A DNA stretch of 64,000 nucleotides from Pseudomonas sp. Tri1 (GTDB lineage: Bacteria; Pseudomonadota; Gammaproteobacteria; Pseudomonadales; Pseudomonadaceae), in NCBI RefSeq assembly GCF_017968885.1, contig NZ_CP072913.1:6302501-6366500 (forward strand). Reading direction: 5' to 3'. Position numbers and translations under genes: made by a program. The notes under the pieces were generated by a model. The model worked only from the letters and a program-made list of their open reading frames with translations, made no database searches and had not been told where the DNA came from. Of the stretch, positions 35,499 through 42,462 are shown in pieces (the first letter of the stretch is position 1; each line of letters begins with the position of its first letter).

Positions 35499-36695
35499 AT
35501 GTCCCTGCCTAGCCTGCGCCTCAAAGCCAACGCCGACCGTCGCCTGCGCGCCGGCCACCTGTGGGTCTACAGTAACGAAATCGATGTGGCGGCCACTCCG
35601 CTGCACAGCTTCAAGGCCGGCGACCAGGCCATCCTCGAAGCCGCCGGTGGCAAGCCGTTGGGCATCGTCGCGATGAGCCCCAACAACCTGATCTGTGCTC
35701 GTCTGTTGTCCCGTGACGTGAAGCTGCCGCTGGACAAATCCCTGCTGGTGCATCGCCTCAACGTCGCGCTGTCGTTGCGCGAGCGACTATTCGACAAGCC
35801 GTTCTATCGCCTGGTCTATGGCGATTCCGACTTGTTACCGGGCCTGGTGGTCGACCGTTTCGGCGATATCCTGGTGGTGCAGATCGCCTCTGCCACCATG
35901 GAAGCCCACAAGGACGACGTGATCGCCGCCCTGACCCAGGTGCTCAAGCCCAGCGGCATCCTGTTCAAGAACGACTCGGCCGCCCGCGATGCCGAGGGCC
36001 TGAACCGCTACGTCGAAACCGTGTTCGGCCTGGTGCCGGAATGGGTCGCCCTGGAAGAGAACGGCGTGAAGTTCGAGGCTCCGGTCATGGAAGGCCAGAA
36101 AACCGGCTGGTTCTACGACCACCGCATGAACCGCGCACGCCTGGCGCCATATGCCAAGGGCAAGCGCGTCCTGGACCTGTTCAGCTACATCGGCGGCTGG
36201 GGGGTGCAAGCGGCGGCGTTCGGTGCCAGTGAAGTGTTCTGCGTCGACGCCTCGGCCTTCGCCCTTGACGGTGTCGAGCGCAACGCGGCGCTCAATGGCT
36301 TCGCCGAGAAACTGACCTGCATCGAAGGCGACGTGTTCGAAGCCTTGAAGGAGCTCAAGGCCAGCGAAGAACGTTTCGACGTGATCGTTGCTGACCCACC
36401 CGCTTTCATCAAGCGCAAGAAAGACCTGAAAAATGGTGAAGGCGCCTATCGCCGTCTCAACGAACAAGCCATGCGCCTGCTCAGCAAGGACGGCATCCTG
36501 GTCAGTGCTTCATGCTCGATGCACCTGCCCGAAGACGACCTGCAGAACATCCTGCTGACCAGTGCCCGCCACCTGGACCGCAATATCCAATTGCTCGAAC
36601 GCGGCGGCCAGGGGCCGGATCATCCAGTGCACCCGGCAATTGCCGAAACCCGCTACATCAAGAGCATTACCTGCCGGCTGTTGCCCAACAGTTGA
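35499..36695 (+). CDS. rlmI: 23S rRNA (cytosine(1962)-C5)-methyltransferase RlmI-type
   Basis: A 398-residue protein with an N-terminal PUA domain (residues about 1-75, KANADRRLRAGHLWVYSNEI), a linker, and a C-terminal Rossmann methyltransferase. SAM motif is VLDLFSYIGGWGVQAAAFGA, and the VADPPAFIKRKKDLKNGEGAYRRL catalytic motif and SCSMHLPED follow. It modifies 23S rRNA at C1962 in E. coli. Terminated at 36754-36779. Confidence 0.9.
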   Translation: MSLPSLRLKANADRRLRAGHLWVYSNEIDVAATPLHSFKAGDQAILEAAGGKPLGIVAMSPNNLICARLLSRDVKLPLDKSLLVHRLNVALSLRERLFDKPFYRLVYGDSDLLPGLVVDRFGDILVVQIASATMEAHKDDVIAALTQVLKPSGILFKNDSAARDAEGLNRYVETVFGLVPEWVALEENGVKFEAPVMEGQKTGWFYDHRMNRARLAPYAKGKRVLDLFSYIGGWGVQAAAFGASEVFCVDASAFALDGVERNAALNGFAEKLTCIEGDVFEALKELKASEERFDVIVADPPAFIKRKKDLKNGEGAYRRLNEQAMRLLSKDGILVSASCSMHLPEDDLQNILLTSARHLDRNIQLLERGGQGPDHPVHPAIAETRYIKSITCRLLPNS

Positions 36696-36753
36696 GTCCC
36701 TGGCGGGGCCGGAGCGACCGCTCTGTGCCCCGTACATAGACATACGATGTGAT

Positions 36754-36779
36754 TCGCAGCCTTGGCTGCGATTTTTTTT
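36754..36779 (+). terminator. Intrinsic terminator after rlmI
   Basis: Stem TCGCAGCC (36754-36761) with GGCTGCGA (36764-36771), two-base loop, then eight T. It insulates the following peptide operon from rlmI readthrough. Confidence 0.9.
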
Positions 36780-36882
36780 GCGCGTATGAAAAGTTACCGA
36801 GCACCGAAGTTAATACCGACTTTGGCGAATCTTGTATGAACTCTCCCACATTATTACTGGAGCTTTCCTACTCAATACTCAC

Positions 36883-36910
36883 TTGCCAAGCCCCCATTAC
36901 AAACTATGAT
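36883..36910 (+). promoter_or_regulatory. Candidate sigma-70 promoter of the peptide operon
   Basis: TTGCCA (36883-36888), 16-base spacer, TATGAT (36905-36910): each hexamer is one base from consensus. The start of transcription would be near 36917, leaving about 60 bases of leader before the small peptide gene. An inverted repeat GTCAC-ATGGCA-GTGAC (36917-36932) lies right at that point and could be an operator. Confidence 0.6.
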
Positions 36911-36977
36911 TGAGCTGTCACATGGCAGTGACGACCATTAGAAGCACAACACTTGTTTCAAACAAAGGAGCTGCATC

Positions 36978-37052
36978 ATGAAAGCAATCAATCTGGAAGC
37001 TGACAAAATCGCTAATCTGGCGGGCCTGATTGTTCCCAAAGCCGCTAAGTAA
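36978..37052 (+). CDS. 24-residue putative precursor peptide
   Basis: A 24-codon gene starting MKAINLEADKI and ending LIVPKAAK at TAA 37050-37052. A strong AAAGGAG (36964-36970) lies 7 bases before the ATG. It has four Lys, two Asn, one Glu, one Asp and one Pro, the rest Ala/Ile/Leu/Val/Gly, and no Cys, Ser, Thr, His or aromatic residue. It is too short for most gene callers. Placed 72 bases before a SagB-type dehydrogenase and a diiron oxygenase, it is best read as the precursor of a ribosomally made, modified peptide. Alternatives are a regulatory leader peptide or a small membrane-active peptide; it is not PqqA (no Glu-x3-Tyr). No peptidase gene is nearby. Confidence 0.72.
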   Translation: MKAINLEADKIANLAGLIVPKAAK

Positions 37053-37059
37053 GTAACCG

Positions 37060-37093
37060 ATGGGGCCGAGGAGTGCCGGCGCTTCGACCCCAT
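37060..37093 (+). promoter_or_regulatory. Stem-loop between peptide gene and dehydrogenase gene
   Basis: ATGGGG (37060-37065) pairs with CCCCAT (37088-37093), enclosing a GC-rich segment that can pair further (GCCG/CGGC). There is no T run. In peptide operons such a structure often protects the upstream message so that precursor is made in excess of the enzymes; that role here is inference. Confidence 0.4.
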
Positions 37094-37124
37094 CCAGACT
37101 CTTCGCCCAGCGGAATCAATTTTC

Positions 37125-38204
37125 ATGCATATAAATCCGTACCTTTTCATACTTGCGCGCCCGCCACACCAGATCGTATGGAACTATGAAAACCATACTC
37201 AATTCGAACTTAACCTCAACTATTCGCTACGTCTGGCACAACTTATAAACGACCCTGCACAATTCGACACCAGCAACACCATTGATATTGAACTTGCAAA
37301 CGCCGACATACTGATTAAAACACCCATCAAACCCCTTACCTGGAACTGGGATGAGTTGTCGAAAATATTTCATATCGGCACAAAAAATATACCGTGTGAA
37401 TGTGTTCCCCAAGATGTGAATCAATGGGCAGCCTCGTACCTGCAACATTGCAGCGAAATACTTTCCTCACCCACGCCTCCCACCCGGGTACAGCCGTGCC
37501 CGGTCGAGCGGATTGCCCTTGCCCCCTGCGCCTTGGTTAATCTGCAGGACGTTTCGCTGACGCAGACACTATTGAGTCGGAGCACTTCTCGCTCATTCAG
37601 TGGGCACGCCATTTCAATCGAGCAAGCCAGCACCCTCCTGTACCTGACCCTGGGCTACCTGAACGAACGCTCGGTCATTCCCGCCAGCCTTCCCGACGCA
37701 CTGGACGCGCGTCGCAGCAGCCCCTCGGGCGGCGGCCTGAACGCCTGCGAGGGCTATCTCTACGTGCGCAACGTCGTCGGCCTGGAACCGGGCATCTATG
37801 CCTATCATCCTGACGAACATGCCTTGAGCCTGATACGGCCGCTACCGGATGAACCCCTGGGCCAATTGCTATGCGGCCAGCACTTCATCGATCCATTACC
37901 GTTCGGCCTGTTCATCACCTCGCGCTTCGACAAACTCTGGTGGAAGTACGAACACTCCCGCGCCTACCGGATGGCTTTTGTCGAAACAGGTCACGTGTCC
38001 CAGACCTTCCTGATGGTGGCAACCGCACTGGGCCTCAAGACCTGGCTGACCGGGGCACTGTCCGACCGCCAAGTGGAACGCCTGCTTGGCCTTGAAGGCG
38101 CACCCGAGCAACCGCTGTTTTTTGTTGGCTGTGGTCATGGCGACGGACAGGTGCACTGCAAGGAATTGATGGCTCTGGTCAATGGCCAGGACAACACACC
38201 ATGA
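37125..38204 (+). CDS. SagB-type nitroreductase-fold dehydrogenase
   Basis: A 359-residue protein. Residues 1-about 120 are an AT-rich-coded N-terminal domain (MHINPYLFILARPPHQIVWNY...) like the front part of SagB-type proteins. Residues about 145-350 are a flavin nitroreductase domain with SRSTSRSFSG (151-160), SPSGGGLNACEGYLY (199-213) and the C-terminal FFVGCGHGDG. SagB/McbC proteins use FMN to oxidise azolines to azoles in modified peptides; others desaturate or oxidise elsewhere. No cyclodehydratase (YcaO) gene is present here. It overlaps the next gene by four bases. Its ribosome binding site is weak, so it may depend on readthrough from the peptide gene. Confidence 0.82.
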   Translation: MHINPYLFILARPPHQIVWNYENHTQFELNLNYSLRLAQLINDPAQFDTSNTIDIELANADILIKTPIKPLTWNWDELSKIFHIGTKNIPCECVPQDVNQWAASYLQHCSEILSSPTPPTRVQPCPVERIALAPCALVNLQDVSLTQTLLSRSTSRSFSGHAISIEQASTLLYLTLGYLNERSVIPASLPDALDARRSSPSGGGLNACEGYLYVRNVVGLEPGIYAYHPDEHALSLIRPLPDEPLGQLLCGQHFIDPLPFGLFITSRFDKLWWKYEHSRAYRMAFVETGHVSQTFLMVATALGLKTWLTGALSDRQVERLLGLEGAPEQPLFFVGCGHGDGQVHCKELMALVNGQDNTP

Positions 38205-39154
38205 CGGGCCCAGCCTCTACGCAAACGCCTCGTTACACCTTGGGTGATTGGGATAACAAGGCAGCAGTACGCGTGAAAAAAAACGACTACCGCCTGCCCG
38301 ACGACCTGGAGCGACAACTGGCGACTCGGGACTGGTTTCCGCCAGCCTTCATTCCCTATATCGCGCATCCACTGATCGACAAGGCGGGACGCGCCGTTGC
38401 CCTGCGCCTGGCGGCTAATCACCTGGTGTATTTCCTCGACTACACCACCATGCTCGAACATCAGGTCGTCAATCGCGCGGTGGAAATCATCGTTCACGGC
38501 GAACTGGCCGCAGCGATCCCCAGGCCGATGAAAACCGCGGCTCTGCAGCTCTACACGGACGAGGGTTATCACGCTCTTTTTTCCAATGAAGTGGCCGAAC
38601 AGATCGCCGCCCTGTATGACATTCGCGACCGCCCACGCCCCAGGCGCATCGATCGGCTGCTGGGTGTGATCGAAGCCGCGAGCCCCGCCGATCGCCCCCT
38701 GGCGTGGTTCCTGTTGGGGTTCGTCTCCGAAACGATCATCGCCAAAGAACTGTTGGCCATCACCCGTGAACGCCTGGTTTCCACGGTGTACCAGATGCTC
38801 AGGAATCATCTCGAGGATGAAGCACGCCACAGTCGCTACTTCTGCGAGGTGTTCCAGTTTCTGTGGGCCGCCCTGCCCCCGACCCAACGCGATCGGGCCG
38901 CAAGGATGCTGCTGGAGATCATCGGCCTTTACTTCGAGCCAGACCTGCCTTGGCTGATGCGCAGCCTCTCCAGCGGCGGCTTCGACGAGCAGTCATCGCT
39001 GCAGATCATTGCCGAACTCCGGCAACCGGATGCCCATGCCCGACGGGTTCGCTGCGGCGCGGTATCGACATTCGCGGCCATGACGAAAGCGAGTTTTTTC
39101 GACAACGAGAACAACCGGCAGCTTTTCTCTCAAGCGGGGTTTATCGATGGCTGA
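38201..39154 (+). CDS. AurF-type diiron oxygenase
   Basis: A 317-residue protein of the p-aminobenzoate N-oxygenase (AurF) family. The full metal set can be placed: Glu86, Glu121-x2-His124 (YTDEGYH), Glu177 (VSETIIAKE), and His203-x3-Glu207-x2-His210 (RNHLEDEARH). The spacings (35, 3, 53, 26, 4, 3) are nearly those of AurF (Glu101, Glu136, His139, Glu196, His223, Glu227, His230). Known members oxidise amines to hydroxylamines or nitro groups, or hydroxylate C-H bonds. In this operon the likely substrate is the peptide or a product of it; a Lys amine is an obvious candidate. It overlaps the dehydrogenase gene by 4 bases and the transporter gene by 8. Confidence 0.85.
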   Translation: MTGPASTQTPRYTLGDWDNKAAVRVKKNDYRLPDDLERQLATRDWFPPAFIPYIAHPLIDKAGRAVALRLAANHLVYFLDYTTMLEHQVVNRAVEIIVHGELAAAIPRPMKTAALQLYTDEGYHALFSNEVAEQIAALYDIRDRPRPRRIDRLLGVIEAASPADRPLAWFLLGFVSETIIAKELLAITRERLVSTVYQMLRNHLEDEARHSRYFCEVFQFLWAALPPTQRDRAARMLLEIIGLYFEPDLPWLMRSLSSGGFDEQSSLQIIAELRQPDAHARRVRCGAVSTFAAMTKASFFDNENNRQLFSQAGFIDG

Positions 39155-40352
39155 CACCAAGGACCTTTTGCACACCCGAAAACCCGCCGTCGTCGGTTTG
39201 CTGCTGACGCTGACCTTGCTCGGTGTATTTCCGATCGATGTGGTGCTGCCCTCGTTCCCTGCACTGTCCGAACACTTCCAGCGCCCATCGTCCGATATCG
39301 CCCTGTCTGTCAGCCTGTTCGCGGTGGGTATCGCCCTTTCGCAGCTGCTGATCGGCCCACTCTCCGACGTCATGGGGCGAAAAAACCTGCTCTTGATCGG
39401 GATTACCGTTTCGGCCCTCGGCGCAACAGGCTGCGTGCTCGCCGACGGCTACGGGGCCTTTCTGTTCTTTCGTGTCGTCCAGGCCTTGGGCTGCGGTTGT
39501 TTCGTACTGTCCCAGGCGTTGATCCAAGACCTGTTCACCGGCCGCGAGCAGCAGCGACTGCGCATCTTCCTGGTCACTTGCGGCGGTATTTTCATTTCCG
39601 TTTCCCCCCTGGCCGGCACCGGGCTACAGAGCTGGATTGGCTGGCGTGGCAGCTTCCTGGTGTTCATCGTCCTGGCCGTCGGCGTGTTCATGAGCGCACG
39701 CCTTTTACTCAAGCCTTGCGCGACGGGCCACCAACGCAAGCACCTGGATTTCATCGCAGCCTATCGAAAGGTTTGCAGTGACTTCAGCTTCATGGCCTAT
39801 TGGTTGACGTCGGCCCTGGCCTTTTCCTGCCACTTCTCGTTTATCGTCATTTCGCCATTGGTGCTCATCGACCAGTTGCAACTCTCGCCCGAGGCCTTTT
39901 CGTGGACGCTGCTGGGCTACGGACTGGCTTATATCGGCGGGGGAGCGGTGGCGACCGTACTGAGCACGCGGATCGACCCACAGACGCAAATCATCACAGG
40001 CCTGGGCCTGATCCTGGCGGCGGGAGCCTTGATGCTCGGGCTGTCCAGTCACTTTGGCTTGTCGGTCACCACCCTGTTGCTGCCCATGATTGTATGCACC
40101 ACCGGAACGACCATTGCCCGGGCGGCGGCCCACACCCGGGCCATGAACCTATTCCCGGAACAAGCCGGTACGTCCGCCTCGGCCGGCAGTGTGCTGATCT
40201 TCGTCGTCGGTGGCCTGACCAGTGCCGCGATCAGCCTTACACCACTGGACCTGCAAGTGACCCTGGCCCTGTGCCTGATGCTGCTCAGCCTCCTGGGGCT
40301 GGGACTCAATACCCTGGTGCGGCATCGTCACAGGGGCCTGTTGCCCGGCTGA
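39147..40352 (+). CDS. MFS exporter, Bcr/CflA drug-resistance type
   Basis: A 401-residue transporter with about 12 hydrophobic helices. MFS motif A is seen in LIGPLSDVMGRKNLLLIG between helices 2 and 3, and the Bcr/CflA-type DVVLPSFPALSEHF segment follows helix 1. Members export drugs and small metabolites with proton antiport. Its start overlaps the diiron oxygenase stop by 8 bases (ATGGCTGA), so it is translationally coupled and most likely exports the operon's product and gives self-protection. Confidence 0.87.
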   Translation: MADTKDLLHTRKPAVVGLLLTLTLLGVFPIDVVLPSFPALSEHFQRPSSDIALSVSLFAVGIALSQLLIGPLSDVMGRKNLLLIGITVSALGATGCVLADGYGAFLFFRVVQALGCGCFVLSQALIQDLFTGREQQRLRIFLVTCGGIFISVSPLAGTGLQSWIGWRGSFLVFIVLAVGVFMSARLLLKPCATGHQRKHLDFIAAYRKVCSDFSFMAYWLTSALAFSCHFSFIVISPLVLIDQLQLSPEAFSWTLLGYGLAYIGGGAVATVLSTRIDPQTQIITGLGLILAAGALMLGLSSHFGLSVTTLLLPMIVCTTGTTIARAAAHTRAMNLFPEQAGTSASAGSVLIFVVGGLTSAAISLTPLDLQVTLALCLMLLSLLGLGLNTLVRHRHRGLLPG

Positions 40353-40620: not shown

Positions 40621-42462
40621 ATGCCTGATTACCGCTCGAAAACATCCACCCATGGCCGCAACATGGCCGGCGCCCGTGCCTTGTGGCGCGCCACGGGGAT
40701 GAAGGATGACGACTTCAAGAAGCCGATCATCGCCATTGCCAACTCCTTCACCCAGTTCGTACCGGGCCACGTTCACCTCAAGGACCTCGGCCAACTGGTC
40801 GCGCGGGAAATCGAACGCGTCGGCGGCGTAGCGAAAGAATTCAACACCATCGCCGTGGATGACGGCATCGCCATGGGCCACGACGGCATGCTCTATTCGC
40901 TGCCGAGCCGCGAGATCATCGCCGACTCCGTCGAATACATGGTCAACGCCCACTGCGCCGACGCCATCGTGTGCATTTCCAACTGCGACAAGATCACCCC
41001 TGGCATGCTCATGGCTGCCCTGCGCCTGAACATCCCGGTGATCTTCGTTTCCGGCGGCCCGATGGAAGCCGGCAAGACCAAGCTCGCCAGCCATGGCCTG
41101 GACCTGGTGGACGCCATGGTCATCGCCGCCGACTCCAGCGCCTCTGACGAGAAGGTTGCCGAGTACGAACGCAGTGCCTGCCCGACCTGCGGTTCGTGCT
41201 CCGGCATGTTCACCGCCAACTCGATGAATTGCCTGACCGAAGCCCTGGGCCTGGCGTTGCCGGGTAACGGTTCGACCCTCGCTACCCACAGCGACCGCGA
41301 ACAGCTGTTCCTGGAGGCCGGCCGGACCATCGTCGAACTGTGCAAGCGCTACTATGGTGAGAACGACGAGTCGGTGTTGCCGCGCAACATCGCCAACTTC
41401 AAGGCGTTCGAAAACGCCATGACCCTGGACATCGCCATGGGCGGTTCCACCAACACCATCCTGCACCTGCTGGCGGCGGCCCAGGAAGCCGAGATCGATT
41501 TCGACCTGCGCGACATCGACCGCCTGTCCCGTCACGTGCCGCAACTGTGCAAGGTCGCGCCGAACATCCAGAAGTACCACATGGAAGACGTGCACCGTGC
41601 CGGCGGGATCTTCAGCATCCTCGGTTCCCTGGCCCGTGGCGGCCTGCTGCACACCGACCTGCCGACCGTGCACAGCAAGACCATGGCCGAAGGCATCGCC
41701 AAGTGGGACATCACCCAGACCACCGACGAGGCCGTGCATCACTTCTTCAAGGCCGGTCCGGCGGGCATCCCGACGCAAACCGCGTTCAGTCAGTCGACCC
41801 GTTGGGAAACCCTGGATGACGACCGCGAAAACGGCTGTATCCGCAGCGTCGAGCACGCCTACTCCAAGGAAGGCGGCCTGGCCGTGCTGTACGGCAACAT
41901 CGCCCTGGACGGTTGCGTGGTGAAAACCGCCGGCGTCGACGAGTCGATCCACGTGTTTGAAGGCAACGCCAAGATTTTCGAAAGCCAGGACAGCGCCGTG
42001 CGCGGGATCCTCGCCGACGAAGTTAAAGCTGGCGATATCGTGATCATTCGCTACGAAGGCCCGAAAGGCGGCCCGGGCATGCAGGAAATGCTCTACCCCA
42101 CGTCCTACCTGAAGTCCAAGGGCCTGGGTAAAGCCTGCGCCCTGCTTACCGACGGTCGTTTCTCCGGCGGTACCTCAGGCCTGTCCATCGGCCACGCCTC
42201 GCCCGAAGCGGCGGCTGGCGGTGCCATCGGCCTGGTGCGCGATGGCGACAAGGTGCTGATCGACATTCCGAACCGCTCGATCAACCTGTTGATCAGCGAT
42301 GAAGAACTGGCCGCGCGCCGCGTCGAGCAGGACAAGAAAGGCTGGAAACCGGTGGAAGTGCGTCCGCGTAAAGTCACCACGGCCCTCAAGGCCTATGCCC
42401 TGCTCGCCACCAGCGCCGACAAGGGCGCGGTGCGGAACAAGGCGATGCTCGACGGCCTGTAA
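40621..42462 (+). CDS. ilvD: Dihydroxy-acid dehydratase IlvD
   Basis: A 613-residue IlvD/Edd enzyme starting [22 protein letters not shown]. Fe-S ligand cysteines are seen in [11 protein letters not shown] and [18 protein letters not shown]; the C-terminal [14 protein letters not shown] is conserved. It makes branched-chain 2-keto acids from dihydroxy acids. An in-frame ATG 14 codons upstream (40579) lacks family similarity. The 268-base space before it has a TAGAAT (40432-40437) as possible -10, but no good -35. Confidence 0.96.

Follow-up and report, generated by a model that had tools for sequence, protein, structure and literature searches.

A four-gene RiPP-like locus of Pseudomonas joining a 24-residue peptide to SagB-type and AurF-type enzymes

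Dehydrogenases of the SagB/McbC type (TIGR03605), which depend on flavin mononucleotide (FMN), occur in the SagBCD and McbBCD systems. The related cyanobactin oxidase ThcOx acts with a YcaO-type heterocyclase on azolines. In bacillamide biosynthesis, BmdC combines a domain resembling a recognition element (RRE) of ribosomally synthesized and post-translationally modified peptides (RiPPs) with a SagB-type oxidase domain in about 335 residues; it serves a nonribosomal peptide synthetase (NRPS), and its RRE is considered a relic in the accessible part of the source (PMC8795117). Here we describe a locus in a 64,000-nucleotide stretch of the Pseudomonas sp. Tri1 genome (contig NZ_CP072913.1; hereafter the window), in which a 24-codon open reading frame (ORF) precedes genes for a SagB-type dehydrogenase, an AurF-type diiron enzyme and a major facilitator superfamily (MFS) exporter, between rlmI and ilvD. 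ORF analysis and family scans agreed with the gene set, coordinates, overlaps and insertion site given in an earlier sequence-only reading, as follows.

36978..37052 (+): putative precursor peptide gene, 24 residues, MKAINLEADKIANLAGLIVPKAAK, with ribosome-binding site AAAGGAG at 36964-36970
37125..38204 (+): SagB-type FMN dehydrogenase, 359 residues (TIGR03605), with a predicted N-terminal RRE-like domain at about 37125-37343
38201..39154 (+): AurF-type diiron oxygenase, 317 residues (PF11583), overlapping the SagB gene by 4 bases
39147..40352 (+): MFS exporter, Bcr/CflA-like, 401 residues (PF07690), overlapping the AurF-type gene by 8 bases
35499-36695 and 40621-42462: flanking genes rlmI and ilvD, respectively

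The best explanation, to which we assign a probability of about 0.8, is that this is a RiPP biosynthesis operon in which the 24-residue peptide is the substrate of the SagB-type and then of the AurF-type enzyme, and the product is exported. The RiPP-like character of the operon is well supported by the evidence below.

A conserved short gene and its enzymes

We searched the AurF-like protein against 298 Pseudomonas genomes, one per species (E <= 1e-20), and obtained matches in 84 genomes at 86 places; 85 fetched regions and the window made up a survey set of 86 rows. An MFS gene was present in 86/86 rows, SagB in 84/86, and both rlmI and ilvD in 74/86. The earlier reading had proposed looking for a short gene with conserved residues ahead of the trio in other genomes, and such an ORF was indeed found upstream of SagB in 83 of the 84 SagB-containing rows. 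In the single exception (L100), SagB matches only over its last quarter. The two rows without SagB comprised a locus with a broken AurF gene (L113, the same place as L194) and a contig (L114) whose opposite end (L193) holds SagB and the peptide. In the latter, contig C6 of genome G189 (50911 bases), the SagB frame spans both contig ends (L193 5917-6912, L114 1-300) in a circle-like manner. We withdrew the interpretation of C6 as a plasmid, because the genes past the operon read alike in C6 and in a partly broken copy on contig C1 (L116), so that duplication during assembly would explain C6 equally well.

All 83 peptides fit the motif M-[KTNQ]-x-[IV]-x-[LM]-[EQ]-x3-[ILM]-A-N-[LFMW], which was composed after inspecting them; 82 have E at position 7 and one has Q. 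Codon 12 encodes Ala in 68/68 23-mers, with all four Ala codons in use. Over 66 distinct short ORFs of 72 nucleotides, the ratio of nonsynonymous to synonymous change (pN/pS) was 0.389 with pS of 0.43; the frame control was thin, with a ratio of 2.04 on 15 ORFs in frame 2 and no usable set in frame 1. The short ORF thus has the signature of a protein-coding gene subject to purifying selection, and a conserved ribosomal precursor gene adjoining modifying enzymes is characteristic of RiPPs. The window peptide contains no Cys, Ser or Thr, and hence no Cys/Ser/Thr-rich core of the kind expected of linear azol(in)e peptides.

A non-peptide pathway, the other possibility raised by the earlier reading, was not seen in the neighbourhood. 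Among the 74 rows flanked by rlmI and ilvD, less than 700 bases lay on each side of the trio in 66, which leaves too little room for an NRPS; in the 12 rows located elsewhere, the neighbouring genes were read by eye without a family scan, and none resembled an NRPS. Extra DNA was observed between rlmI and the peptide gene in L231, L055, L086 and L102 (about 1.7-2.4 kb), and between the MFS gene and ilvD in L096-L099 and L108 (0.9-2.1 kb). In a search reaching beyond the genus, two of 369 genomes of the class matched AurF: the window's own and one weak match (L136), which is not a trio and adjoins an adenylation-domain-like protein, as judged by eye. No strict-motif peptide was found near a second AurF-like stretch of the window's genome (L137).

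The SagB-type protein scored above the cut-offs for Nitroreductase (PF00881; 58.7 against 23.5 bits) and the SagB family peptide dehydrogenase (TIGR03605; 119.6 against 78.4 bits), whereas it fell short of the putative peptide maturation dehydrogenase model (TIGR04511; 147.6 vs 240 bits). Its predicted structure matched the folds of ThcOx (5lq4, best), BmdC (next) and McbC, and residues 1-73 matched RRE domains. The prediction for the N-terminus is therefore an RRE, so that the modifying enzyme itself would carry the leader recognition domain of a RiPP pathway. No cyclodehydratase gene, such as linear azol(in)e peptides require, is present in the operon, and a genome-wide search (E <= 0.001), whose control was positive in 5/14 genomes, gave no YcaO match.

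The AurF-type enzyme likewise exceeded its family cut-off (PF11583; 70.1 against 29.6 bits), so that both enzyme assignments of the earlier reading held. Residues E86, E121, H124, E177, H203, E207 and H210 were invariant across 17 aligned sequences and aligned with E101, E136, H139, E196, H223, E227 and H230 of AurF (3chh), which we take to be the metal ligands. Judged from this alignment, the enzyme looks active, with an intact metal site. The exporter belongs to MFS_1 (PF07690; 128.8 against 33.4 bits); for the narrower Bcr/CflA subfamily named earlier, the TIGR00710 score of 186.1 bits lies slightly below the cut-off of 200.9.

An MFS gene 50-56% identical to the exporter was located directly past rlmI in 3/17 genus genomes lacking SagB (L292, L299, L302), where we found no head-motif ORF on the same strand within 1.5 kb and no SagB or AurF match genome-wide; ilvD was within 1.4 kb in 8/17 genus genomes without a SagB match. 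Similarly, one locus (genome G031; L194) combined a broken AurF gene and the absence of a SagB match with an intact MFS gene. The exporter seems to be retained after loss of biosynthesis, which fits a pump protecting against the product, although these numbers are small.

Partner enzymes and peptide tails in variant loci

A SagB profile search over the same 298 genomes (E <= 1e-50) yielded matches in 90, of which 8 had no AurF match and one (G236) had a second place. Nine SagB loci of the genus lacked AurF, four with an MFS gene only and five with a carbamoyltransferase. In the former (L156, L185, L186, L187), the rlmI-ilvD site carries only the peptide, SagB and MFS genes, and the peptides have the conserved head without the A-N pair (e.g. 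MKTVILESKELAAFSLIGMPK). In the latter (L188, L189, L192, L190, L191), genes for a NodU-type carbamoyltransferase and an MFS protein lie beside SagB, with an additional methyltransferase containing tetratricopeptide repeats (TPR) in L190 and L191. The same carbamoyltransferase and MFS pair occurs outside the genus in Paraburkholderia (L197), a metagenome-assembled genome (L233), Cupriavidus (L252) and Pandoraea (L264). The carbamoyltransferase was called by Pfam in L188, L190, L191, L197 and L264, by tblastn in L233 and L252, and from the protein start in L189 and L192.

The peptide contains SN[DN]AY at 9/9 carbamoyltransferase loci. Compared with ANLAF beside AurF, SNDAY presents the hydroxyl groups of Ser and Tyr in place of Ala and Phe, a contrast that fits O-carbamoylation; the Ser and Tyr hydroxyls might therefore be carbamoylated, as far as these peptides allow us to infer. 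We dropped N13 as a marker of AurF loci, because the carbamoyltransferase loci likewise have Asn in SN[DN]AY. The carbamoyltransferase loci with such precursors look like a sister pathway whose gene logic resembles that of the gvg cluster. Two precursors are tandem: the 38-residue precursor of L152, found at the order level beside a LysE exporter, consists of two units, and the 54-residue precursor of L197 contains the whole head-plus-SNDAY unit twice. The peptide at L153 is MKRVYIEDTAPYALGVAVAVYTTC. Overall, the tail varies with the partner enzyme, while the head and SagB stay the same. The RRE-like domain, the tandem precursors in two relatives and the partner swaps with their tail changes favour a RiPP pathway, and so support the earlier proposal of a minimal peptide biosynthetic unit.

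In a further scan restricted to the best 80 of 139 SagB relatives, a short ORF with the head motif was found upstream at 78/80 loci; this set and the genus survey share some genomes, and their counts are not additive. The exceptions were L196, where no short ORF was found upstream of SagB, and L195, where MKKVVKEITESVLDTRCIAIIKK stands behind GGAG in place of a head-motif peptide. Distant SagB relatives were also noted on plasmids of Maritalea (L308), Roseateles (L309) and Priestia (L310), with an MFS gene in L308 and L310; all three have unannotated upstream ORFs of 25-36 codons with possible ribosome-binding sites, and the motif is not shared. The presence of a SagB relative in 90/298 genus genomes, together with alternative versions at one chromosomal site, suggests an ecological role. 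Because a gene of 24 codons is easily overlooked by annotation, the size of the family is probably underestimated.

Several observations weigh against a RiPP pathway. The distant relative L195 (4447-8163) encodes SagB, a 23-codon ORF, a 447-residue protein and an ATP-grasp protein with a C-terminal domain like that of L-amino-acid ligases, and no convincing motif peptide was found at more distant SagB loci. Moreover, the peptide has no conserved residue of a classical modification type, the operon contains no protease, and the E-values of the RRE match are weak.

The ligase-like partner of L195 and the LysE-type amino-acid exporter of L152 would fit a role of the peptide as carrier or scaffold: as in PEARL systems, a small molecule or free amino acid would be assembled on the peptide, which would itself stay outside the product. 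The very short and largely conserved peptide also agrees with this possibility, as does the gvg (FVG) cluster, for which the accessible part of the source describes a required lysine-rich small ORF in the company of genes for LysE exporters, a carbamoyltransferase and a protein of the heme-oxygenase-like type (PMC8067088). However, the operon studied here (type A) has no ligase, and the C-terminal end of the peptide is variable among relatives, though an attachment end should be fixed. A search for the PEARL-type domain Lant_dehydr_N (PF04738) gave no match in the genome or operon, but its control matched nowhere and it provides no evidence. We consider a carrier role unlikely.

The intercistronic hairpin and other 5' signals

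A second alternative concerns the region between the peptide gene and SagB, where an RNA hairpin is found. The elements on the 5' side of SagB are as follows.

36754..36779 (+): intrinsic terminator closing rlmI, with a 7-pair stem (36754-36771) and a T-run
36854..36872 (+): conserved upstream box, TTACTGGAGCTTTCCTACT, containing 8-mers recurrent in AurF-type relatives
36883..36910 (+): sigma-70-like promoter, TTGCCA-16-TATGAT, from a pattern search and recurrence in relatives
36917..36932 (+): dyad GTCAC-N6-GTGAC directly past the -10 element, with matched-pair stem changes seen by eye
37056..37097 (+): intercistronic RNA hairpin, stem 37064-37070 with 37083-37089, loop AGUGCCGGC, core AGTGCCGGC

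The hairpin core AGTGCCGGC occurs exactly in 64/83 AurF-type spacers between the peptide and SagB genes, and the stem changes by matched pairs. Covariation was examined on a set of 31 hairpins picked from 56 to cover their diversity. Changes on both sides affected 35 cells, where shuffles gave 8.9 and slid controls never more than 15, and 87% of cells were paired. Six pairs showed a double change, a number reached in 29/500 shuffles. The covariance model (R1) scored the window hairpin at 33.8 bits and gave 19 matches with E <= 4.3e-4 in 79 genus genomes, the next having an E-value of 0.02. All 19 lay just upstream of SagB, and a strong match was present in 19/22 AurF-positive genomes among the 79; since many of the matches are close to training rows, the specificity weighs more than the sensitivity. 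In a mixed-subtype set of 30 sources, the hairpin was found in 4/8 with AurF (the window, L231, L240 and L260; absent in L256, L109, L110 and L111) and in 0/22 without AurF. A search of 36600-37200 against Rfam gave no match above the gathering score; three sub-threshold matches of the snoRNA type were judged to be due to chance. The hairpin likely lowers the amount of enzyme relative to precursor.

Such a specific hairpin, and a very short ORF standing first in the transcript, could also indicate a regulatory leader peptide whose translation, together with the hairpin, controls three genes of small-molecule metabolism. We regard this as quite unlikely, because the amino-acid sequence is kept while synonymous change is free, the tail tracks the partner enzyme, the precursors of L152 and L197 contain two whole units and SagB bears an RRE-like domain. 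It is highly improbable that the conserved short ORF is a chance neighbour of an unrelated pathway of amine oxidation and export, for although SagB-type oxidases also serve NRPSs (BmdC, in the accessible part of PMC8795117) and the distant AurF-like gene of L136 has an adenylation-domain-like neighbour, the ORF accompanies nearly every SagB gene surveyed, its head survives partner swaps and most loci have no room for an NRPS.

Upstream of the peptide gene, the signals were less distinct by pattern. The promoter pattern was found once, compared with 1.8 expected in shuffles, and is by itself not clearly over chance; the promoter proposed in the earlier reading gains from its relatives, in which the same -35 and -10 elements recur (22 upstream regions were read by eye, and many contain CTTGCCAA and TATGAT). 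Likewise, the terminator said to insulate the operon has its stem and T-run, but five such patterns were found against 3.1 in shuffles, which is not clearly above chance. The 8-mers TTACTGGA and TTCCTACT of the upstream box recur in 44/83 and 46/83 distinct upstream regions of AurF-type relatives, respectively. The stem of the dyad is altered by matched pairs in AurF-type relatives (by eye, uncounted), and the dyad is a candidate for either a hairpin of the 5' untranslated region or an operator. The low GC content reported earlier applies to 36750-37499 only (0.46-0.48) and hence marks the 5' part of the operon; the remainder has 0.56-0.64, the same as its neighbours.

Proposed pathway and comparison with known systems

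In a RiPP pathway, the peptide head M-K-x-I-x-L-E would dock as an added beta-strand on the RRE-like domain of SagB, which could then oxidise the segment around A12-N13-L14 in a two-electron reaction dependent on FMN. Because no YcaO cyclodehydratase was found in the genome, this oxidation would act directly on the peptide rather than on an azoline. The AurF-type enzyme might next add oxygen at or near A12-N13-L14 by N-oxygenation or hydroxylation. A housekeeping protease would cut out the modified fragment for export by the MFS pump, which would also protect the producer, while the hairpin past the peptide gene would hold precursor output above enzyme output. If true, this would be a minimal four-gene RiPP pathway, small enough to be rebuilt in a laboratory strain; it would mean that SagB-type oxidases act on peptides in which no azoline is formed, and that a ribosomal peptide is a substrate for diiron chemistry of the AurF type.

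The earlier reading did not recognise this gene set as a described class, and in the accessible part of the open-licence literature (preprints being outside it) we found no description of a peptide/SagB/AurF/MFS system. Conservation of the tiny gene in almost every relative surveyed suggests that its products form a natural product family of peptide origin, for which no description was found. A deletion study of P. chlororaphis places an aurF gene in a removed block, and the accessible part of that source does not allow us to tell whether it is the same gene (PMC5594592). On balance we lean, if only slightly, towards a broader RiPP class, defined by a self-sufficient RRE-SagB enzyme. Independently of any cyclodehydratase, this enzyme would desaturate ribosomal peptides about 21-58 residues long and pass them on to interchangeable tailoring enzymes (AurF here; elsewhere a NodU-type carbamoyltransferase, in some loci joined by a methyltransferase). 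This class would occur widely across Pseudomonas and extend to Paraburkholderia, Cupriavidus and Pandoraea, perhaps also to plasmids of alphaproteobacteria and Priestia. It would count BmdC-type NRPS oxidases as captured members and give AurF-type enzymes a ribosomal-peptide substrate.

Among the known systems, ThcOx comes closest in fold to the complete SagB model, with its WKY motif aligned, and it also bears RRE-like (peptide-clamp) domains according to the available text (PMC5108345); unlike ThcOx, the enzyme described here has neither a YcaO match in its genome nor a Cys/Ser/Thr-rich core in its peptide. BmdC shares the domain arrangement and is the second fold match, but here a ribosomal peptide gene adjoins SagB. 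SagBCD and McbBCD have the dehydrogenase family in common with our locus, which has an AurF partner in place of the cyclodehydratase. AurF itself, the p-aminobenzoate N-oxygenase, shares the seven metal-site residues; the enzyme here reached 50 vs 620 bits on the 4-aminobenzoate N-oxygenase model (NF045603), short of its cut-off, and has a peptide gene as neighbour. The OS3 cluster of Pseudomonas sp. Os17 (Os1348-Os1351) also joins a small precursor to a SagB-type dehydrogenase without homologues of sagA, sagC or sagD, but it differs in its 85-residue precursor, acetyltransferase, HEXXH protein and 650-residue SagB protein, with no AurF enzyme named in the accessible part of the source (PMC7726476). 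Finally, the gvg cluster, with its required short ORF, heme-oxygenase-like redox enzyme, NodU-type carbamoyltransferase and amino-acid exporters, follows a logic like that of the carbamoyltransferase variants; it differs in that its gene table, in the part of the source available, has no SagB and its small ORF is lysine-rich (PMC8067088).

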